Assembly: GCF_900187405.1 (NCBI RefSeq)
Contig: NZ_LT896716.1
Coordinates: 1,426,001-1,490,000 of the forward strand
Length of the DNA: 64,000 nucleotides
Direction of reading: 5' to 3'
Origin: Geobacter sp. DSM 9736
GTDB lineage: Bacteria; Desulfobacterota; Desulfuromonadia; Geobacterales; Geobacteraceae
In this document: positions 37,257-50,162 of the stretch, piece by piece
How the letters are laid out: each line of letters opens with the position of its first letter
How positions within the stretch are numbered: position 1 is the first letter of the stretch
Notes under the pieces: generated by a model
Told to the model about the DNA's origin: nothing
The model's input: the letters and a program-made list of their open reading frames with translations, nothing else
Databases searched by the model: none
Made by a program: the position numbers and the translations under genes

Positions 37257-37576
37257 GGGTGGTCGTCGGTTCTCTTAGCCAGGGGAACTGGATGATGGCC
37301 GAGCATAGTAATACCCCAGAATTATGGTTTTTTCCAGATAACTGTAAGGCAGATGCTGAAGGTCGAGAGAAAAGCCCTAATGCGTGAGCTATTTTTAATT
37401 GGCCTGTATTGACTTTACCTGCGGCGTCATGTATATTCGCCCGAACCATTGAAGGAGGCCGTAAAGCTTGAGTTACAGTGTGTATGTAACAATCAAGCCT
37501 TGCGAGGCATCGTCCTGAATCATTAACATTAGTGAAAAATTGTTTTGGCTTTTTGAATTATCTACAGGGAGACTTT
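37257..37576. other. divergent intergenic region between recG and the cytochrome gene
   Basis: About 320 bases. It holds a strong promoter candidate at 37409-37437 and, behind it, GAAGGAGG followed by a TTG start at 37468 that would give a 16-codon peptide (LSYSVYVTIKPCEASS). That could be a leader peptide or chance. The gap is AT-rich around 37380-37420. I found no promoter for recG that I would name. Confidence 0.4.
37409..37437 (+). promoter_or_regulatory. sigma-70 promoter candidate for the c7 cytochrome gene
   Basis: TTGACT (37409-37414) and TATATT (37432-37437) are 17 bases apart. The start would be near 37444, leaving a leader of ~130 bases that includes a possible short upstream frame at 37468. 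Confidence 0.6.
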
Positions 37577-38644
37577 ATGAAAAGAATTATTTTTATTTTG
37601 ATATTAGTTTCTACAAGCAAAGCTCATGGCGATGTCCTCTGGTATAGCCTTGAACATGGTTCAAAGCTAGATATGATCAATGAAATGAGTGTCGATTTGA
37701 CAGGCCGTATAGGCATCCCTGAATGTGGAACTGTCGAGAGAAATGCAAATGAAGCAAAAGCAATGTATCCTTTAAAAGAAGTTTACTATGACAATATACC
37801 TGTAGCGATTCAACCTCATTTGTCCGCAAGAAGACATGAAATCCCGTTGTTCGGAGGCCCTGGAGTTGAACTATCCGCGACACCTGCAATGGATATTTAT
37901 CGAAATGGAACGGTTTCCAGCTTCAGCTGGCCTCTCCAGCAACTGCTGGAGAGCGATTGGGGAAGTGAGGCGTTGATCTACAGGCGACAGCTTGTGCTTG
38001 ACGAAGCACAGAATAGCTTTGCCACATTCAATGGGCAGCAGTGTCCGGAGACTATTAGGCTTAATTTGAAAGTAATTGATTCTTGGACGACTTATCAGCC
38101 TGAAATACAAAACCTTCCTGATGGGCAACAGGTAACCGTCTCCGCGATTAAAGGAGTTCGAGAAAGCCTACTCGGATACCTGACAATAATGGCGGCAGTG
38201 ATCCCCAATTCTTCGGAGAAAACACACGAAGAAGACCATGATCAGCTCAGGGGTCGGGTCGAACCCGGAATCAAGCTAAACGCGCGCCCGAATCTCAAGG
38301 TACAAGCCACAAGACCAAAGTACATTTCCCACGAAGAACTGCAAGGCAAACCCATTTCTTCACCTAAATTTATGCAACCGAACCGAGTGACGCCTGCCAC
38401 TCCTGGCGCTGGCCATTCAAGCACAATTTCACACGACCATGTACGGCTCAACGCCAAAAATGGGGCAGTTACATTTTCACATCCTCAGCACGGTAATAAT
38501 GCATGCAATTCATGTCATGAAGGACAAACTGGAAAGATAGCTGGAATAGGAAAAGAATGGGCACACAGAACCTGTAAGGGATGCCATTCAAAAGCAAATC
38601 GAGGACCTATCAAATGTGGTGAGTGTCACCGCAAGGGGGGTTAG
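37577..38644 (+). CDS. secreted c7-type triheme cytochrome with unrecognised N-terminal domain
   Basis: A 355-residue exported protein (signal peptide ~1-18, cleaved near AHG). The last ~60 residues form a class III cytochrome c7-type unit: VTFSHPQHG and three heme sites CNSCH, CKGCH and CGECH at about 310, 333 and 347, with extra His residues as axial ligands. The preceding ~250 residues have a globular-looking half (with sparse Cys) and a flexible Pro/Thr/Ser-rich linker, and match nothing I know. The gene is AT-rich compared with its neighbours. The likely role is periplasmic or outer-surface electron transfer coupled to an unknown binding or catalytic domain (inference). Confidence 0.85.
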   Translation: MKRIIFILILVSTSKAHGDVLWYSLEHGSKLDMINEMSVDLTGRIGIPECGTVERNANEAKAMYPLKEVYYDNIPVAIQPHLSARRHEIPLFGGPGVELSATPAMDIYRNGTVSSFSWPLQQLLESDWGSEALIYRRQLVLDEAQNSFATFNGQQCPETIRLNLKVIDSWTTYQPEIQNLPDGQQVTVSAIKGVRESLLGYLTIMAAVIPNSSEKTHEEDHDQLRGRVEPGIKLNARPNLKVQATRPKYISHEELQGKPISSPKFMQPNRVTPATPGAGHSSTISHDHVRLNAKNGAVTFSHPQHGNNACNSCHEGQTGKIAGIGKEWAHRTCKGCHSKANRGPIKCGECHRKGG

Positions 38645-43638: not shown

Positions 43639-44091
43639 CTATTTCGTCCAGACAGTGCTCCTGCCGAACAGCGGGATTCCGATATAGCCCCTCAACTCCA
43701 GACGGCGGGGAGACACCAGCCTGATCTCGCTTTTGTAGGTCGCACCCGACTCCGGATCATAAATGCGCCCCTTCTCCCATAACCCATCACCAGCATAGCG
43801 GAACCCTTCCATTATCTGCAAGCCAAGCAGAGGACGATTCCGAAGCGCCGGGTCAGGGTTTTCCCTGTCCACCCGCGGCCTTCCCCCCATCCCTTCTTCG
43901 TCGTCGGGCGGATATTCCGGCATGCCGAGCCATACGATCTTCCCGCAATAGTGGAAACCGCAGCGATAGATGTCTATTTTCGCCCTGCCATCCTCGCTGT
44001 TCCATCTCCCTGTAATGCTTTCCGCACCCTCTCCAAACGCGCAAACTGCCGCAATACAAATAGCCGCCACCATGGCGAGGCTTTTGACCAT
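43639..44091 (-). CDS. DUF2147 family exported protein
   Basis: A 150-residue protein with a signal peptide (MVKSLAMVAAICIAAVCAFG). The mature domain fits DUF2147, a lipocalin-like beta barrel: GRWNSEDGRAKIDIYRC, FHYCGKIVWLGMPEYP, ILG-like LLGLQIMEGF, WEKGRIYDPESGATYKSEIRL, LRGYIGIPLFGRSTVW. Two Cys (YRCGFHYCG) may form a disulfide. GGGAGG precedes the ATG at 44091. Function of the family is uncertain. It ends 12 bases from the TTG upstream extension of the hybrid kinase. Confidence 0.85.
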   Translation of the reverse strand: MVKSLAMVAAICIAAVCAFGEGAESITGRWNSEDGRAKIDIYRCGFHYCGKIVWLGMPEYPPDDEEGMGGRPRVDRENPDPALRNRPLLGLQIMEGFRYAGDGLWEKGRIYDPESGATYKSEIRLVSPRRLELRGYIGIPLFGRSTVWTK

Positions 44092-44238
44092 GCCGTGTCC
44101 TCCCTTCGAGAAGTTGCTCGCGCCACCGTACCACAATCATTGTGCAAAGCGTCTCGAAGTCAATGGCCGGCCGCAGAGATCGACCTTGCGTAGCGGGCAT
44201 CCTCGTTTATCATTGTTTCGGCACACTGCGGGGAAATC

Positions 44239-45666
44239 ATGACTCAAAGGATACTGTTGATAAGCACCAACCGGGAACTGGCGCCGCAACCGGTCCTGCC
44301 GGCCGGGGCGGCGTTGGTCGCCCAGGCCCTTCAGGTCGCGGGATTCCAGGTCCGCCTTCTTGACCTCTGCTTCGAAAAGCGGCCGCTCAGGCGGATCGAC
44401 GACACCCTGAGAACCTTCGGGCCCGACGGCATCGGGATATCCCTCCGGAACCTCGACAACTGCGACCTTCTGTCACCCCGATCATACCTGCACGAGGTGA
44501 AGGAAGTTGTCGACTTCCTGAAGAGCCGCACCGATGCCCCTGTATTGATCGGTGGTGCTGGAGTGAGCATCATGCCCCGGCGGGTACTCGAATTTCTGGA
44601 ACTGGATTACGCAGTTGCCGGGGAGGGGGAGGCTGCTGCGGTTATGTTCTTTCAGGCCGGTGGAGCGGAGGAACGATCGCGGATACCCGGCGTCGTGTGC
44701 AGGAGGGAAGAAGCCGCCCCGGAGGCCGGCGAGCACCTGGGCCGAATCGGCGTGATGCCGCGGCTGCATCGATGGGTGGATACGAAGCTGTACCTGCGGT
44801 TCGAACCGGTCATCCCGGTACAGGGGAAGCGGGGATGCGCGAATCGCTGCCTCTACTGCACCTATCCCGCAATCGAGGGGAACCGATGGCGGTGCAGGGA
44901 CCCCGGAGAGGTGGCAGAGGAAATCGAAGCAGCGATGGCCGCCGGAGGGATGGAGTTCGAGTTCGTGGACAGCGTCTTCAATCAGCCGGAGGGATACATG
45001 GAGATGCTGCTGGAAAAAATTATACGGAGCCGGATCCGGGCCCGCTTCCATGTCTCATCCCTCTCCCCATCCGGATTGACCGGTTCGCAGGTGCGGCTCA
45101 TGGAAAGGGCCGGAGTGGTCTCGGTGGTGATCACGCCGGAAGCCGCCTCGGATGCAACCCTGGCTGCGCTTCGCAAAGGGTTCACCGCAGCAGAGGTCGC
45201 CCGCGCCGCCTTTCTCCTCTCCGGATCAGGCATCCGTGCGCTCTGGTGTTTTCTGCTCGGGGGGCCGGAGGAGGATGAAAATACCCTGGCGGAAACCATT
45301 GCCTTCATGAACCGGAAGATACCGGGAAAGGACAGGGCCTTCATCACTACCGGTATCCGGATCTATCCAGGCACCGGCATGCATGAGACGGCTCTGCGGG
45401 AGGAGGTCGTATCCCCGGCAGAGGATCTCCTTATGCCGGCCTTCTACTTCACGCCCCGGCTCACCCTCAAGCAGGCGCAGAAAATGCTGCGCTACGGCAT
45501 TGAGGCCCAGGAACGCTGCATATTCCCGTCCGACACCAGACTCGGGCCTGTGGGAGCATTCCGCCGCCTGGGCGCGGCACTGAAGCTGCCCACCCCCTTC
45601 TGGCGGTACTCCTCGTCCCTGAACAGGCTGATGCAAAGGAGCCGGGTCATTAACCGTTCCTGGTGA
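44239..45666 (+). CDS. B12-binding-type radical SAM enzyme (first gene of the polyketide-like cluster)
   Basis: A 475-residue enzyme. The N-terminal ~130 residues have the Rossmann fold of the cobalamin-binding class (PQPVLPAGAALVAQALQVAGFQVRLLDL, GGAGVSIMP, GEGEAA), and the radical SAM core has CANRCLYC (Cys 200, 204, 207) for the 4Fe-4S cluster. B12-dependent radical SAM enzymes methylate unactivated carbons or rearrange or cyclise substrates. The DxHxxG motif for base-off cobalamin is not obvious, so B12 use is unproven. It starts 67 bases before a methyltransferase gene and is the 5' gene of a four-gene plus-strand group. Confidence 0.85.
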   Translation: MTQRILLISTNRELAPQPVLPAGAALVAQALQVAGFQVRLLDLCFEKRPLRRIDDTLRTFGPDGIGISLRNLDNCDLLSPRSYLHEVKEVVDFLKSRTDAPVLIGGAGVSIMPRRVLEFLELDYAVAGEGEAAAVMFFQAGGAEERSRIPGVVCRREEAAPEAGEHLGRIGVMPRLHRWVDTKLYLRFEPVIPVQGKRGCANRCLYCTYPAIEGNRWRCRDPGEVAEEIEAAMAAGGMEFEFVDSVFNQPEGYMEMLLEKIIRSRIRARFHVSSLSPSGLTGSQVRLMERAGVVSVVITPEAASDATLAALRKGFTAAEVARAAFLLSGSGIRALWCFLLGGPEEDENTLAETIAFMNRKIPGKDRAFITTGIRIYPGTGMHETALREEVVSPAEDLLMPAFYFTPRLTLKQAQKMLRYGIEAQERCIFPSDTRLGPVGAFRRLGAALKLPTPFWRYSSSLNRLMQRSRVINRSW

Positions 45667-45733
45667 TGTGGCGCCTCGGGAAAATGATGGTACTATCAAT
45701 TAAGCTCGGCACCCCCTCCAGGCGAGGATTCCC

Positions 45734-46444
45734 ATGCTCCCCACCCCGAAGCGCAGGACCGAACGCGAACTGCTGGACCTCCCCCATGAAGCATACGCAT
45801 TCGAGGAACTGGAGGGAAGCCTCAAGGACATCAGCATCGTAAACAGGTACCTGGGAGACACCCTTGCGGTGCTGAAGCATCTTTCGGCGATGACCGGGGG
45901 GGCGAGCGGACGGATGACACTGCTGGATGTGGGGACAGGTTCGGCGGACATACCGGCCGCCATAGCCGGATGGTGTCGAAACCGAGGAGTCGGAATCGAG
46001 ATAACGGGAATCGACAACAATCCACACACCGTCGGAATAGCGCGGAAAAAGACCGGCCATATCCCCGAAATCCGCATTGCGGTTGCTGACGGGCTCGACC
46101 TGCCGTATCCCGACCGCAGCTTCGATTACGTTATCTGCTGCAAGACCCTCCACCACTTCGCAGATGAAGAGGCGGTGCAGCTCATCAGGGAAACGGCGAG
46201 GGTCGCGAGGAGGGGATACCTGATCCTCGATCTTCGGCGCAGTTGGACGGCGTGTTTCCTGATAAGCATCCTCACGAGGCTCTTCACCCGTAACCGGCTC
46301 ACACGAAATGACGGCCCCCTCTCCGTCCTGAGAAGCTACACTCCTGCCGAGCTTGCATCACTCGCCTCCTGCGCCGGCGTCCCTGCGTTCACAATTCACC
46401 GGGAGCCGTTCTGGCTGATGGTACTGAGAGGAGAGGCCGTGTGA
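45734..46444 (+). CDS. class I SAM methyltransferase
   Basis: A 236-residue enzyme of the UbiE-like fold. Motif I is LLDVGTGSADIPAA (63-76), followed by GIDNNPHTVGIA and VADGLDLPYPDRSFDYVICCKTLHHF; the last is the acidic active-site region typical of Methyltransf_11. The protein lacks a membrane domain. UbiE-like enzymes methylate ring carbons or oxygens of quinones, and class I methyltransferases of this kind accompany type III polyketide synthases in other bacteria. It overlaps the next gene by four bases (GTGA). Confidence 0.88.
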   Translation: MLPTPKRRTERELLDLPHEAYAFEELEGSLKDISIVNRYLGDTLAVLKHLSAMTGGASGRMTLLDVGTGSADIPAAIAGWCRNRGVGIEITGIDNNPHTVGIARKKTGHIPEIRIAVADGLDLPYPDRSFDYVICCKTLHHFADEEAVQLIRETARVARRGYLILDLRRSWTACFLISILTRLFTRNRLTRNDGPLSVLRSYTPAELASLASCAGVPAFTIHREPFWLMVLRGEAV

Positions 46445-47661
46445 TATTTTCAGTAGCAACGAATTTCAGGTCAGATTTTCTCGACGCCATGAAAGGCTTG
46501 CCGGTGGCGGAGCTCTTCGGAAAGCTCCCCGCCGACAGCATCGGCGGGGGGCGCGCCTCTTTCATGCTTTCCCCCCTCGGCCGGAAGGAGTTCAAGGAGC
46601 ACGTACGGCTGGCCGCAGAACGCGGCATAGGCTTCAACTATCTGGTCAATCCGGCATGCATGGACAACAGGGAGTACACCCGCAAAGGTCAGGCGGATCT
46701 GGAGCGCCTACTGGGTTTCATCGAGGAAGCCGGCGTCACTGCCGTAACGGTTTCCCTTCCCTTCCTGCTCCCCATAATCAAAAAGCGGCACCCACGGCTT
46801 AAAGTGAGAATCGGGGTGTATGCCCGCGTGGACAGCGTCGCCAAGGCACGATACTGGGAGGATCTGGGCGCCGACTGCATCACCCTGGAATCGATCTCGG
46901 TCAACCGCAACTTTCCGCTGCTGGCGGCTATACGGCGAAGCGTCCGGCTGGAGCTCCAGCTGATAGCCAACTCCAATTGCCTCATCTTCTGTCCGCTTTC
47001 GGGGCAGCACATGGTAAACCTCTCGCACGCCTCCCAGAAGGGGCACTCCAGCCGCGGCTTCATGATCGACTACTGCGCTCTCAGCTGCTCATTCCACAAA
47101 CTCGCCGACCCCTCCCACTATCTGCGGTCCGAATTCATCAGGCCGGAGGACATCCACCTGTACGAGGAGCTGGGATACACCTCCTTCAAGATCCTCGAAA
47201 GGGGTGCGCCGACCGCTCTCATGGAAAAGCGTGTTCGCGCCTATGCCGAGCGCAGCTTCGAAGGTAATCTGCTCGACCTGATCCAGCCGTACGGTTACAG
47301 GGGGAAACCGGGCTCCGGACTTGGAGGCATGAGGGATATCGGGAGGTTTCTAAGGTATTTCTTCAGACCGCGGACCATCAGCACATCGGGGATGCTGAAG
47401 CTGAAAACGCTTGCGGAAAAACGAGGGCTGATCGCGGCGACGGAAGGGGAGCCGGTCCGCATAGACAACAGGGCGCTGGACGGGTTTATTAGGGGAATTA
47501 AGGAGATCGACTGCCGGAGTACTGGATGCAGTGAGTGCGGCTACTGTGCGGCATGGACCGAAAGGGCCGTCACAGTGGACGAGACGTACCGTTCGGAGAT
47601 GCTTAGGCTATACTCGGAGGCGTTCAACGACATGTATTCGGGAAAGCTGTGGAGGCACTGA
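46441..47661 (+). CDS. U32-family protein with extra C-terminal Cys cluster
   Basis: A 406-residue protein. The barrel core has the U32 family layout (LVNPACMDN, VTVSLPFLLPIIKKRHP, ADCITLESISVNR, ELQLIANSNCLIFCP, YCALSCSF). Cys 180/184 and 212/216 are placed like the 4Fe-4S ligands of UbiU/UbiV and TrhP-type proteins. A second cluster C358xxxxC363xxC366xxC369 near the C-terminus looks like another Fe-S site. The family includes the oxygen-independent hydroxylases UbiU and UbiV, RNA hydroxylases TrhP and RlhA, and proteases. Start GTG at 46441, overlapping the methyltransferase stop. In this cluster it may hydroxylate the polyketide product without oxygen (inference). Confidence 0.85.
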   Translation: MIFSVATNFRSDFLDAMKGLPVAELFGKLPADSIGGGRASFMLSPLGRKEFKEHVRLAAERGIGFNYLVNPACMDNREYTRKGQADLERLLGFIEEAGVTAVTVSLPFLLPIIKKRHPRLKVRIGVYARVDSVAKARYWEDLGADCITLESISVNRNFPLLAAIRRSVRLELQLIANSNCLIFCPLSGQHMVNLSHASQKGHSSRGFMIDYCALSCSFHKLADPSHYLRSEFIRPEDIHLYEELGYTSFKILERGAPTALMEKRVRAYAERSFEGNLLDLIQPYGYRGKPGSGLGGMRDIGRFLRYFFRPRTISTSGMLKLKTLAEKRGLIAATEGEPVRIDNRALDGFIRGIKEIDCRSTGCSECGYCAAWTERAVTVDETYRSEMLRLYSEAFNDMYSGKLWRH

Positions 47662-47665
47662 ATCG

Positions 47666-48772
47666 ATGGGCACCGCAAAAGCTTACATAGCTTCCATTGC
47701 TGCCGTGGCTCCTGCCTTCAGCGCGGACCAGCAGTTCGTTGCCGACCTGATCCGGGACCGGTACTCCGCGATGCTGACCCCCCGTAGCCAGGGGCTGATC
47801 CGGGCCACCTTTTCGCACCCCAGCATCCGGAAACGACACTTCGCCCTGGACGACCCGTTACGCGTCATCGACGAATCTCCTGACGAAAGAATCGCCAGGT
47901 TCACCGAAAAGTCGATAGAGCTGTCTGGGGAGGCTGTTGCAAGCGCACTGGACAGGGCCGGCCTGGGAGTCGCCGACGTCAGGGGGCTCGTGGTCAACAC
48001 CTGCACGGGCTACATCTGCCCCGGCATATCCACCTATCTCCTTGAAAGGCTGGGGCTCCCCCGCAGCACCAGGGTGTACGACATGGTGGGGAGCGGCTGC
48101 GGCGGCGCCCTCCCGAACCTTCAGGTGGCCGAATCGATACTCGGAACCACCGGAGGCGCCGTGGTGAGCGTGGCCGTCGAGATATGCAGTGCCGTCTTTC
48201 AGATGGACAACAGCCTGAGCCTGATCATGTCCAACGCGATCTTCTCCGACGGAGCGGCTGCGGCTGTCCTATGGGAGAGGCCGGAGGGGCTGGAGCTGGT
48301 TGCTTCCGCATCACGATACGTCCCCGAGAAACGTGACGATATACGCTTCGTTCACCGGCAGGGACAACTTCACAACCAGCTCTCCCTGAACCTGCCGGGG
48401 GTCGTCAAGGTTGCCGCCGCGGAGGCCGTCGGTGAGGTTCTCTCCTGCCGGAGCCTTACGCCCGGCGACATCCGGCACTGGGCGCTCCACACCGGAGGGG
48501 AAAAGATCATCAACGCGGTGCGGGACGAAATAGGCATTCCGGAGGAGCGGCTCCGGGCAACCCGCCGCATATTGGAAGAGTATGGCAATATGTCGTCTCC
48601 CACAGTCTGGTTCGTTCTCGACGAACTGCTCCGGGAGGGGGTCCCTCCGGGAGACTGGTGTCTGATGGCTGCCTACGGAGCCGGCCTTTCGGCCCATGCT
48701 TACCTGCTGAAAAAATCCCCGGTAACTGCAGGCCCTTCGAACAGATTCCTCAGAACGTATGCCGGGATCTGA
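47666..48772 (+). CDS. type III polyketide synthase-like enzyme
   Basis: A 368-residue thiolase-fold enzyme. The catalytic triad is visible: Cys 145 in VGSGCGGALPNL, His 275 in WALHTGG and Asn 308 in YGNMSSPT. These fit chalcone/stilbene-synthase-like type III synthases of bacteria, which extend an acyl-CoA starter with malonyl-CoA into alkylpyrones, resorcinols or phloroglucinols; 3-oxoacyl-ACP synthase III is the alternative, but its motif around Cys is different. GGAGG lies 10 bases before the ATG at 47666, four bases after the U32 stop. Its 3' end overlaps the opposite-strand radical SAM gene by 23 bases. Confidence 0.85.
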   Translation: MGTAKAYIASIAAVAPAFSADQQFVADLIRDRYSAMLTPRSQGLIRATFSHPSIRKRHFALDDPLRVIDESPDERIARFTEKSIELSGEAVASALDRAGLGVADVRGLVVNTCTGYICPGISTYLLERLGLPRSTRVYDMVGSGCGGALPNLQVAESILGTTGGAVVSVAVEICSAVFQMDNSLSLIMSNAIFSDGAAAAVLWERPEGLELVASASRYVPEKRDDIRFVHRQGQLHNQLSLNLPGVVKVAAAEAVGEVLSCRSLTPGDIRHWALHTGGEKIINAVRDEIGIPEERLRATRRILEEYGNMSSPTVWFVLDELLREGVPPGDWCLMAAYGAGLSAHAYLLKKSPVTAGPSNRFLRTYAGI

Positions 48773-50162
48773 ACTGGTCCCCACTGAACCAGCCACGTAT
48801 ATGCTCAAGGGCGCTCAGCAGGACCTTCAGCGCCCCCTTCTCCCTCTTCCTCACGAAGTAATTCCCCCTGAACATCGACGGGCTGAAGAAGATCTTTATG
48901 TTCTCCCAGTTCATGATGCGGTTAAGCTGCTTCAGGGTAAGGTGCCTTGTGCGGACGTTGCAGATGAAGCCGGTATACCTGCTCAGATCGTCATGGTTTT
49001 CGACAAGTGCGGCATCAAGCAGCTCCTTCCGGATGACCGTTCCCGGATACGGCGTTACGCACTGGACGTACGGAAGATCCACCTTGAGCCTTCTGGCGAC
49101 ACGAAACACCTCACGGACATCCTCCCGGGTATCCTCCGGGTTGCCTACTATGAGCCCGCCCATGACGGCAATCCCGTGCGCCCTCAAGAGGGCTACCGCC
49201 CGCTCGGTCTTCTCCCGGATGTCCCCTTTCCTGAAGCGGCGCAGAGTCTCCTCACGCACCGCTTCTATACCCAGGAAAACGAGCCTGAAATTCGCCCGCG
49301 CCAGCACGGGAATCAGTTCCGGGTCTGCGACGATCCCCTCAACTGATGCCTGCACCAGATATTCCATTGCGTTTAGACCGTTTTCGATTATCGCTTCCCC
49401 AAGGCGCCGGAAACGGAGCGGGTCAAGAGTGACGTTATCGTCCACAAGCAGCACCGTCTCCGTCCCATGCCGCTGCAGCTCCTTCAGGTCCGCGATCACC
49501 CGGGAAAGAGGAAACCGGCGGAAGCTCGTACCGTACATTCCGTTGATGGAGCAGAAAGTACACGGCATCGTGCAGCCGCGGGATGTCTCCACACAGTCCA
49601 TCTTTCGTCCGAAATATGTGAATCCGTCCAGAACGCGGGCCTTCCTGTCGGGTAGAGGAAGGCGCTCAAGATCGAGAAGGCAGCCCGCCGGGTTGTGAAT
49701 GAAGCCTTCCTCCCGCGCCCATGAAAGTCCCGGCACCGATTCGTAACCTCTATCCCTCTCCAGGGCCTCCACCAGCAAAGGAAAAGCCCCCTCTCCCTCC
49801 CCGCGGATGAGGAAGTCGAAAGGCGCGCCCCGCGGCGTCAGTTCACCGCCGGCAAGTGTCGCGTGATAGCCCCCCAGGACAATCTTCGCTTCCGGGACCG
49901 AAGCCCTGCAGATGCCGGCCACCTCGACGGCGCTCCGGTACTGGAAGCTCATGCTGCTTATTCCGATCAGATCGGGACGGAATTCCTGCAGAAATTTATG
50001 AAGCCAGGGGCGTATCCTCCGGTGGACGAGAACCAGGTCCACGATCTTTACCTGGTGCCCCGGCAGGTTCCCGGCAATGGAGCAAAGACCGAGATTCGGC
50101 ACTTTTATTATGCGATTGAAATTGTTCGCCGCATCGGGCATTGCCAGAAGGAGAACTCTCAT
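48750..50162 (-). CDS. B12-binding-type radical SAM enzyme (converging on the synthase)
   Basis: A 470-residue enzyme. N-terminal Rossmann-like domain (NLGLCSIAGNLPGHQVKIVDL, VLGGYHATL, GEGEGAFPLL) and radical SAM core with CTMPCTFC (Cys 197, 201, 204), followed by VDDNVTLDP, a motif common in this subfamily. It resembles the BchE/HpnP/HpnR-type group that works on lipids, hopanoids or tetrapyrroles. It converges on the type III synthase with a 23-base overlap, so the pair probably shares a history. Its start is separated from the hybrid kinase gene (50301) by an unrelated gap. B12 use is not proven. Confidence 0.85.
   Translation of the reverse strand: MRVLLLAMPDAANNFNRIIKVPNLGLCSIAGNLPGHQVKIVDLVLVHRRIRPWLHKFLQEFRPDLIGISSMSFQYRSAVEVAGICRASVPEAKIVLGGYHATLAGGELTPRGAPFDFLIRGEGEGAFPLLVEALERDRGYESVPGLSWAREEGFIHNPAGCLLDLERLPLPDRKARVLDGFTYFGRKMDCVETSRGCTMPCTFCSINGMYGTSFRRFPLSRVIADLKELQRHGTETVLLVDDNVTLDPLRFRRLGEAIIENGLNAMEYLVQASVEGIVADPELIPVLARANFRLVFLGIEAVREETLRRFRKGDIREKTERAVALLRAHGIAVMGGLIVGNPEDTREDVREVFRVARRLKVDLPYVQCVTPYPGTVIRKELLDAALVENHDDLSRYTGFICNVRTRHLTLKQLNRIMNWENIKIFFSPSMFRGNYFVRKREKGALKVLLSALEHIRGWFSGDQFRSRHTF

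Follow-up and report, generated by a model that had tools for sequence, protein, structure and literature searches.

In a 64,000-nucleotide stretch of the genome of Geobacter sp. DSM 9736 (contig NZ_LT896716.1, positions 1,426,001 to 1,490,000; here called the window), we observe a five-gene locus at positions 44239 to 50162 that unites a type III polyketide synthase (PKS), a U32 family protein, a methyltransferase (MT), and two B12-binding radical S-adenosylmethionine (SAM) enzymes, rsamA and rsamB. Comparative genomics shows that, in clusters of this synthase family, the U32 protein is exchanged with a flavin adenine dinucleotide (FAD)-dependent monooxygenase. An earlier note on this DNA had placed the U32 protein where an oxidase would be expected, and it does hold the position of the flavin monooxygenase beside the same synthase family; the two exchange and are never found together within the order. 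The cluster is probably the O2-independent counterpart of the hid/srs phenolic-lipid operons, and we infer ring hydroxylation by the U32 protein, prephenate as its oxygen donor, and a phenolic lipid as the product.

Exchange of the U32 protein with a flavin monooxygenase

The source genome is a single contig of 3.96 Mb and belongs to the same family as Geomonas and Citrifermentans. Among 141 genomes of its order, U32 relatives occur in 29 (at least 70% identity in 24, distant in 5), and the synthase is present at more than 60% identity in 30 and at 28 to 29% in 2 more. All 24 genomes with the closely related U32 gene also carry the synthase (Fisher test of co-occurrence, 7.7e-22, with genomes treated as independent and 17 of the 24 belonging to one genus). 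The order rsamA, MT, U32, synthase, and convergent rsamB is kept in 17 of 17 loci of a Geomonas-like genus. Restriction of the gene set to one genome is ruled out, as it is conserved over many taxa within the order and outside it, and this recurrence argues that the set is more than a chance assembly.

Six genomes of the order have the synthase and lack this U32 gene (G052, G065, G085, G094, G110, and G119; G-numbers denote genomes and L-numbers loci). Their neighborhoods were fetched, and all were read except the short G110 contig. In four of the six (G052, G065, G085, and G119), an FAD monooxygenase adjoins MT. The G065 copy is a flavin monooxygenase of family PF01494, and its cluster otherwise consists of a DUF2147 gene, rsamA2 (another B12-type radical SAM enzyme, 35 to 37% identical to rsamA), the synthase, and rsamB; G085 carries a 63% identical enzyme in the same setting. 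PF01494 was tested on the G065 copy, to which the other copies in the order are 49 to 68% identical. The FAD gene of G052 lies on a different contig from the synthase, and that of G119 lies approximately 26 kb from the synthase and was matched as two overlapping pieces in different frames (L199, G119:C60:165484-166685), so that it may be broken or misassembled. G094 and G110 have the synthase, and neither the U32 nor the FAD gene was found in them.

A search for the FAD enzyme in the 141 genomes matched six: the four named above, G109 with a fragment (no synthase was found there), and G055 with a weak match of 28% identity. The 24 U32 genomes all lacked a match, and the two genes were never found together in one of the 141 genomes (chance of zero overlap, 5e-4, under the same treatment of genomes as independent and with the same dominance of one genus). 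The genome of strain DSM 9736 holds no homologue of the FAD enzyme at E<=1e-20.

The exchange extends to a distant lineage of the synthase, about 28 to 33% identical to that of the window. In a sample of 395 genomes of the phylum, the synthase occurs in 31 (E<=1e-25) and a U32 relative in 43 (E<=1e-15). Within the distant lineage, U32 stands beside the synthase in G202, G381, G495, and G361 and approximately 3 kb away in G477, and an FAD enzyme stands beside it in G314, G360, and G215. These three are the only phylum genomes with an FAD match at E<=1e-35, always next to the synthase. Two genomes from the family of G360, namely G401 and G440, lack an FAD match; in both, U32 and the synthase are on separate contigs, and the U32 copy of G401 groups among the synthase-linked proteins in our U32 tree. 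In L176, a flavoprotein of another kind adjoins the synthase, and many synthases of the phylum sample have neither U32 nor the FAD enzyme within reach (e.g., L157-L162, L166, and L170-L175).

A synthase tree was built from 108 loci, of which 10 were skipped (aligned segment under 280 amino acids, or a stop); the remaining 98 gave 80 distinct sequences and, after thinning at 88% identity with equal label, 63, which with the window make 64 rows. Labels refer to the whole genome rather than to adjacency for L186 and L189 (FAD) and for L164 and L165 (U32), the last of which was later thinned out. The seven FAD rows require seven changes between U32 and FAD. Sister pairs of unlike type are L164 (U32) and L167 (FAD) with support 100/100, L034 (U32) and L186 (FAD) with 100/88, and L035 (U32) and L187 (FAD) with 100/95, and a tree that holds the order's four FAD rows in a single clade is rejected by the approximately unbiased test (p-AU 3.2e-06). 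The tree carries a long-branch warning for L282, L162, L232, L175, and the group of L100 with L259/L264. By this tree, the hydroxylase has been exchanged several times around a constant synthase.

The FAD enzymes match many models of class A flavin monooxygenases, none over its cut-off. The best model is the generic monooxygenase PRK08244 for the G065 copy and UbiH/UbiF/COQ6 for the G314 copy; the latter model, TIGR01988, gives 87.9 and 147.8 bits on the FAD enzymes (cut-off, 224.65). Hydroxylation is the probable role of the U32 protein, since its flavin-dependent substitutes are members of PF01494 with matches to class A monooxygenases and since, in ubiquinone synthesis, U32 proteins replace such enzymes without O2 (PMC6747719 and PMC10470549). 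Alternatively, the U32 protein could perform another redox step, such as dehydrogenation, dearomatization, or sulfur chemistry, unrelated to the step of the FAD enzyme and leading to different products. Known functions are described for few U32 members (PMC6747719), paralogues occur in varied contexts such as loci of LuxC-type acyl reductases, and PMC10896814 leaves open what the FAD enzyme of the known operons does. We nevertheless regard this alternative as unlikely, given the repeated exchange between sister synthases, the lack of any order genome with both genes, the placement of the exchanged enzyme in a superfamily of aromatic ring monooxygenases, and the adjacency of chorismate mutase to U32 in other loci.

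The synthase, the U32 protein, and their gene neighbors

The coupling of the genes (Table 1) is as tight as the earlier note had stated: the GTG start codon of U32 lies within a GTGA that overlaps the MT stop, and four bases (ATCG) separate the U32 stop from the synthase ATG, both confirmed in the DNA. A radical SAM gene is indeed present on each side. However, rsamB is convergent with the synthase, tail to tail with a 23-base overlap, and therefore lies outside the transcription unit of rsamA, MT, U32, and the synthase.

Table 1. Genes of the locus and of its upstream flank (window coordinates)
Feature	Position	Strand	Models and motifs
rsamA, B12-binding/radical SAM enzyme, paralogue of lipid-biosynthesis family TIGR04072	44239-45666	+	Pfam B12-binding, Radical_SAM
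MT, class I SAM methyltransferase, PRK06202/UbiE-like	45734-46444	+	Methyltransf_11, Ubie_methyltran
U32 oxidase-like protein, proposed O2-independent ring hydroxylase	46441-47661	+	PF01136 over cut-off
Type III PKS	47666-48772	+	Chal_sti_synt_C over cut-off; Cys145-His275-Asn308
rsamB, B12-binding/radical SAM enzyme	48750-50162	-	Pfam B12-binding, Radical_SAM
DUF2147 protein, possible exported accessory	43639-44136	-	PF09917, 127.2 bits

The synthase combines a Cys-His-Asn triad, whose three residues are in place as the earlier note had read them, with a type III PKS family model over its cut-off (Chal_sti_synt_C, 64.8 bits against 27). ACP_syn_III_C likewise exceeds its Pfam cut-off (61.5 against 26.6). 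A grouping with 3-oxoacyl-acyl carrier protein synthase III (FabH) is ruled out by the Pfam, NCBIfam, and PDB matches taken together: the fabH model reaches 82.2 bits against a cut-off of 292.1, and the closest sequences in the PDB are type III PKSs, headed by Pks11, named an alpha-pyrone synthase. The best NCBIfam match is DpgA, which we reject as an assignment at 174.8 bits against a cut-off of 425. These two best matches would suit a synthase that makes a small aromatic acid of the DpgA type (3,5-dihydroxyphenylacetate) or an alkylpyrone, and no phenolic lipid. We consider such a product quite improbable: the DpgA score falls far under the cut-off, nothing named like DpgB, DpgC, or DpgD is found among the five genes, genes for YceI-like and MMPL-family proteins beside related clusters favor a lipid, and alkylresorcinols are made by the most similar type of operon whose products are known (PMC10896814).

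The U32 protein scores 29.4 bits with Peptidase_U32 (PF01136; cut-off, 22.4), and its AlphaFold2 model (predicted local distance difference test score, 89.5) has a predicted U32 barrel fold, which together place it in the U32 superfamily. The model aligns with the U32 structure 5d88 at Z 21.0 (root-mean-square deviation, 2.8 over 228 residues), and the next row has Z 13.1; 5d88 is the sole U32 structure among the matches listed by Foldseek and VIA-align, where absent rows exclude nothing. A single chain carries two four-Cys motifs, CX3CX27CX3C (C180, C184, C212, and C216) and a C-terminal CX4CX2CX2C (C358, C363, C366, and C369). Eight Cys residues never vary across 44 diverse U32 rows (C73, C180, C184, C216, C358, C363, C366, and C369), and position 212 is a Cys in 40 of them; all four exceptions are linked to chorismate mutase. 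In these (L261, L275, L279, and L281), His or Ser replaces C212 and the remaining motif Cys are kept.

The protein is neither UbiU nor UbiV. Its Cys spacing differs from CX6CX16CX38C of UbiU and CXnCX12CX3C of UbiV (PMC6747719), the cluster has a single U32 gene where UbiU-UbiV is a two-gene heterodimer, and in a quick tree with very long branches it forms a separate branch beside Escherichia coli UbiU, UbiV, TrhP, and RlhA, with these four proteins and one paralogue from its own genome placed across the branch (SH-like approximate likelihood ratio test, SH-aLRT, 100; row own_L001, in a wrong reading frame, was disregarded). A profile of the U32 alignment matches UbiU at E 1e-4 over 131 columns, RlhA at 0.0023, and UbiV at 0.16, a comparison that is not strong because single sequences are poor partners. 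The earlier note had envisaged an anaerobic route to a hydroxylated, methylated phenolic lipid or quinone, with a U32 protein from the family that includes UbiU/UbiV and with radical SAM enzymes that would add or rearrange carbon; the substitution for a flavin monooxygenase supports this in part. As to whether the protein is closer to proteases or to hydroxylases, its neighbor genes point to aromatic hydroxylation, and on this evidence it would work like UbiU-UbiV yet belong to neither.

Other U32 genes were met in passing. Paralogues approximately 32 to 41% identical to the window protein occur in L102, L103, L115, and L116, as tandem pairs in the first two; beside them lies a gene of the LuxC acyl-coenzyme A reductase family, assigned by Pfam on L102, in most cases together with one that by eye resembles LuxE. 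In L112, L118, L119, L121, L122, and L124, distant relatives lie less than 6 kb from genes for large molybdopterin-type oxidoreductases (by eye only).

Both radical SAM enzymes contain CxxxCxxC. rsamA scores 348.6 bits with TIGR04072 (348.3 in a second scoring), just under the cut-off of 360, and is thus not assigned as a member, although it is a full-length relative; its copies are 55 to 61% identical in all 17 Geomonas-like loci. rsamA2 replaces it in the second family of the order and also in two genomes of the first, G052 and G058, in several cases with a DUF2147 gene adjoining U32 or MT. For rsamB, the assignments BchE (152.5 bits against 481.35) and HpnR (134.5 against 650) are rejected. 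Its copies, 68 to 80% identical, lie near the synthase in most relatives within the order, with none seen on the contigs of L042 and L189, and relatives 54 to 59% identical occur in L236, L239, and L245. In L191 (G072), a different type III PKS (approximately 28% identical) and a methyltransferase of the isoprenylcysteine carboxyl methyltransferase (ICMT) type adjoin a 73% identical rsamB, which therefore accompanies a nonorthologous synthase too. Elsewhere in the source genome, L193 (C1:3394000-3413900) holds genes resembling an acyl carrier protein, a ketosynthase, and a short-chain dehydrogenase (by eye) along with a B12/radical SAM member of TIGR04072 over the cut-off (378.7 bits), and is perhaps akin to the type II fatty acid synthesis (FASII) loci mentioned for Geobacter in PMC2649909.

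MT matches Methyltransf_11 (61.1 bits), Ubie_methyltran (37.9 bits), and, below the cut-off of 243, NF004851 (142.9 bits), and immediately precedes U32 in the 17 Geomonas-like loci. Thirteen of these loci have one extra gene between rsamA and MT, whose product, judged by eye, resembles an exported protein and matches no Pfam family (e.g., L046:6399-7361 and the corresponding genes of the 12 other loci). A DUF2147 gene adjoins U32, MT, or rsamA2 in L034, L036, L037, L042, L059, L185, and L187. YceI-like and MMPL-family genes stand beside the synthase or synthase-U32 clusters of several lineages (Pfam on examples), as in the gene run rsamB, MMPL, YceI, U32, rsamA2, synthase of L239, and thereby support an exported lipid. 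Further upstream in the window, positions 37532 to 38644 encode an exported-looking protein with several CxxCH near its C terminus, a possible multiheme cytochrome.

U32 loci across bacteria and the proposed oxygen donor

Fourteen U32 proteins, almost all of them linked to a type III PKS, were aligned and used to scan a collection of 84,980 species; the best 80 of 141 confirmed stretches were kept. The synthase is present in 50 of these 80 named U32 loci, within 3.5 kb of U32 in 49, within 200 bases in 21, and on the same strand in 45; 45 of the 50 additionally have a methyltransferase. Because the query favors synthase-linked copies, this fraction should not be taken as an unbiased estimate. 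The loci with a synthase come from Geomonas, Citrifermentans, Desulfobacteraceae, Nitrospinales, Planctomycetota, Lentisphaerae, Kiritimatiellae, Verrucomicrobia, Bdellovibrionales, Riflebacteria, and others, and an ICMT-type methyltransferase lies near the pair in L093, L099, L237, and L244 (Pfam on L093).

Aromatic-pathway genes also neighbor some of the U32 genes that lack a synthase partner. In 6 of the 30 loci without a type III PKS, a gene for 3-deoxy-D-arabino-heptulosonate 7-phosphate (DAHP) synthase lies 55 to 440 bases from U32. Five of the matches (L261, L275, L279, L281, and, in part, L273) extend over a chorismate mutase domain, and that of L241 is confined to the DAHP part (Pfam on L273, L281, and L275). 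Elsewhere in 170 partly overlapping loci (2.55 Mb), the DAHP query had no match, although other types of DAHP synthase would escape it. Chorismate mutase makes prephenate, so this adjacency, met without being sought, fits prephenate as the donor. Prephenate is described as the oxygen source of U32 oxidases (PMC11574389) and as a possible one (PMC10470549). In L231, U32 is flanked by a gene for anthranilate synthase component I and a TrpG-like gene (the latter by eye), and three Nitrospirae loci have a methyltransferase, then U32, then polyketide cyclase-like and ketosynthase genes.

That the U32 protein modifies tRNA or rRNA like TrhP and RlhA and sits in the cluster by chance is very improbable, for although the substrates of characterized U32 oxidases are RNA or precursors of ubiquinone (PMC11574389), its presence tracks the synthase (24 of 24 genomes in the order, with the pairing in 50 of 80 loci over many phyla), and the source genome holds two further, higher-scoring U32 genes elsewhere.

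Proposed pathway and comparison with known systems

In the O2-independent phenolic-lipid pathway that we favor, the synthase would extend a fatty-acyl starter with malonyl units and cyclize the chain to an alkylresorcinol-like ring, as its family and operon type suggest. Without O2, the U32 protein would then hydroxylate this ring, with prephenate as the oxygen donor, and MT would methylate a ring carbon or oxygen. The two B12-type radical SAM enzymes might alter the chain or the ring, perhaps as C-methylating enzymes, and YceI-like and MMPL-family proteins in relatives, here perhaps the DUF2147 protein, may carry the product to the outer envelope.

Several observations weigh against this pathway. 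The U32 protein is distant from UbiU and UbiV and its Cys spacing is different. Approximately 20 of the 80 named U32 loci have neither a type III PKS nor a recognized aromatic-pathway neighbor, some of them on short contigs, and 14 of the 64 rows of the synthase tree have neither hydroxylase, among them L157 and L158 (69 to 72% identical) and, within the order, G094 and G110; the hydroxylation step would therefore be dispensable. What the FAD oxidoreductase of the planctomycetal operon does is still to be elucidated (PMC10896814). Several key genomes are metagenome bins, so that single cases of exchange could be binning errors, an explanation that fits the overall pattern less easily. Finally, genes for heme-copper oxidases (COX1) were found in 41 of 43 genomes tested, including all carriers of the FAD enzyme. 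The two misses, G092 and G501, are both U32 carriers and too few to separate the two kinds, and oxygen lifestyle as the cause of the choice between U32 and FAD is not upheld. The COX1 test is not decisive, since UbiUV can substitute for aerobic hydroxylases also with O2 present (PMC10470549).

A wider proposal, which we hold to be speculative and rather doubtful, is that these proteins form a general, so far unrecognized branch of single-chain, two-cluster, prephenate-dependent U32 aromatic hydroxylases that, with type III PKSs, methyltransferases, and B12-type radical SAM enzymes, give a polyketide lipid quinone exported to the outer envelope for electron transfer in iron-reducing and many other bacteria. 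U32 oxidases of known function serve ubiquinone synthesis and RNA (PMC11574389). No description of the pairing of a type III PKS with U32 was found in the open-access literature, which was searched in part and with subscription journals and preprints outside its scope. Our results tie one U32 branch to aromatic polyketides over many phyla, exchanged several times with flavin monooxygenases. They offer a defined enzyme pair for testing O2-independent ring hydroxylation, prephenate as the possible donor, and the roles of the Fe-S clusters in a single-chain protein, and they lead us to expect, in Geobacteraceae and other bacteria, phenolic lipids or quinones of a class not known so far.

Among known systems, srsABC of Streptomyces griseus likewise combines a synthase (for alkylresorcinols), a methyltransferase, and a ring hydroxylase. 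SrsB is a membrane methyltransferase and SrsC a flavin monooxygenase, where the window has U32. srsC is described as a stand-alone hydroxylase belonging to a type III PKS cluster (PMC8086630). The hidABC operon of cyanobacteria, which makes hierridin B, and a planctomycetal operon each contain a type III PKS, a methyltransferase, and one oxidoreductase, and share with the window the order methyltransferase, oxidoreductase, synthase (PMC10896814). Hierridin B is a pentadecylresorcinol that is ring-hydroxylated by an added hydroxyl and O-methylated, and the known operons of this order yield alkylresorcinols (PMC10896814). The oxidoreductase of the planctomycetal operon is FAD dependent, and radical SAM enzymes are not mentioned in the accessible part of that paper. 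Relative to hid/srs-type operons, the window thus has the synthase and the methyltransferase, with U32 instead of the FAD-dependent oxidoreductase.

The enzymes of TIGR04072, known from lipid biosynthesis and ladderane-type loci, resemble rsamA over its full length, yet rsamA stays below their cut-off. With UbiU-UbiV, the U32 protein shares its family, a four-Cys motif in the barrel part, the replacement of flavin hydroxylases, and a context of methyltransferase and aromatic lipid. UbiU-UbiV, however, is a heterodimer with one cluster per chain (PMC6747719), whereas the window has one gene with two four-Cys motifs; and UbiU-UbiV act on a shikimate-derived ring, whereas the U32 protein of the window is proposed to act on a polyketide ring.

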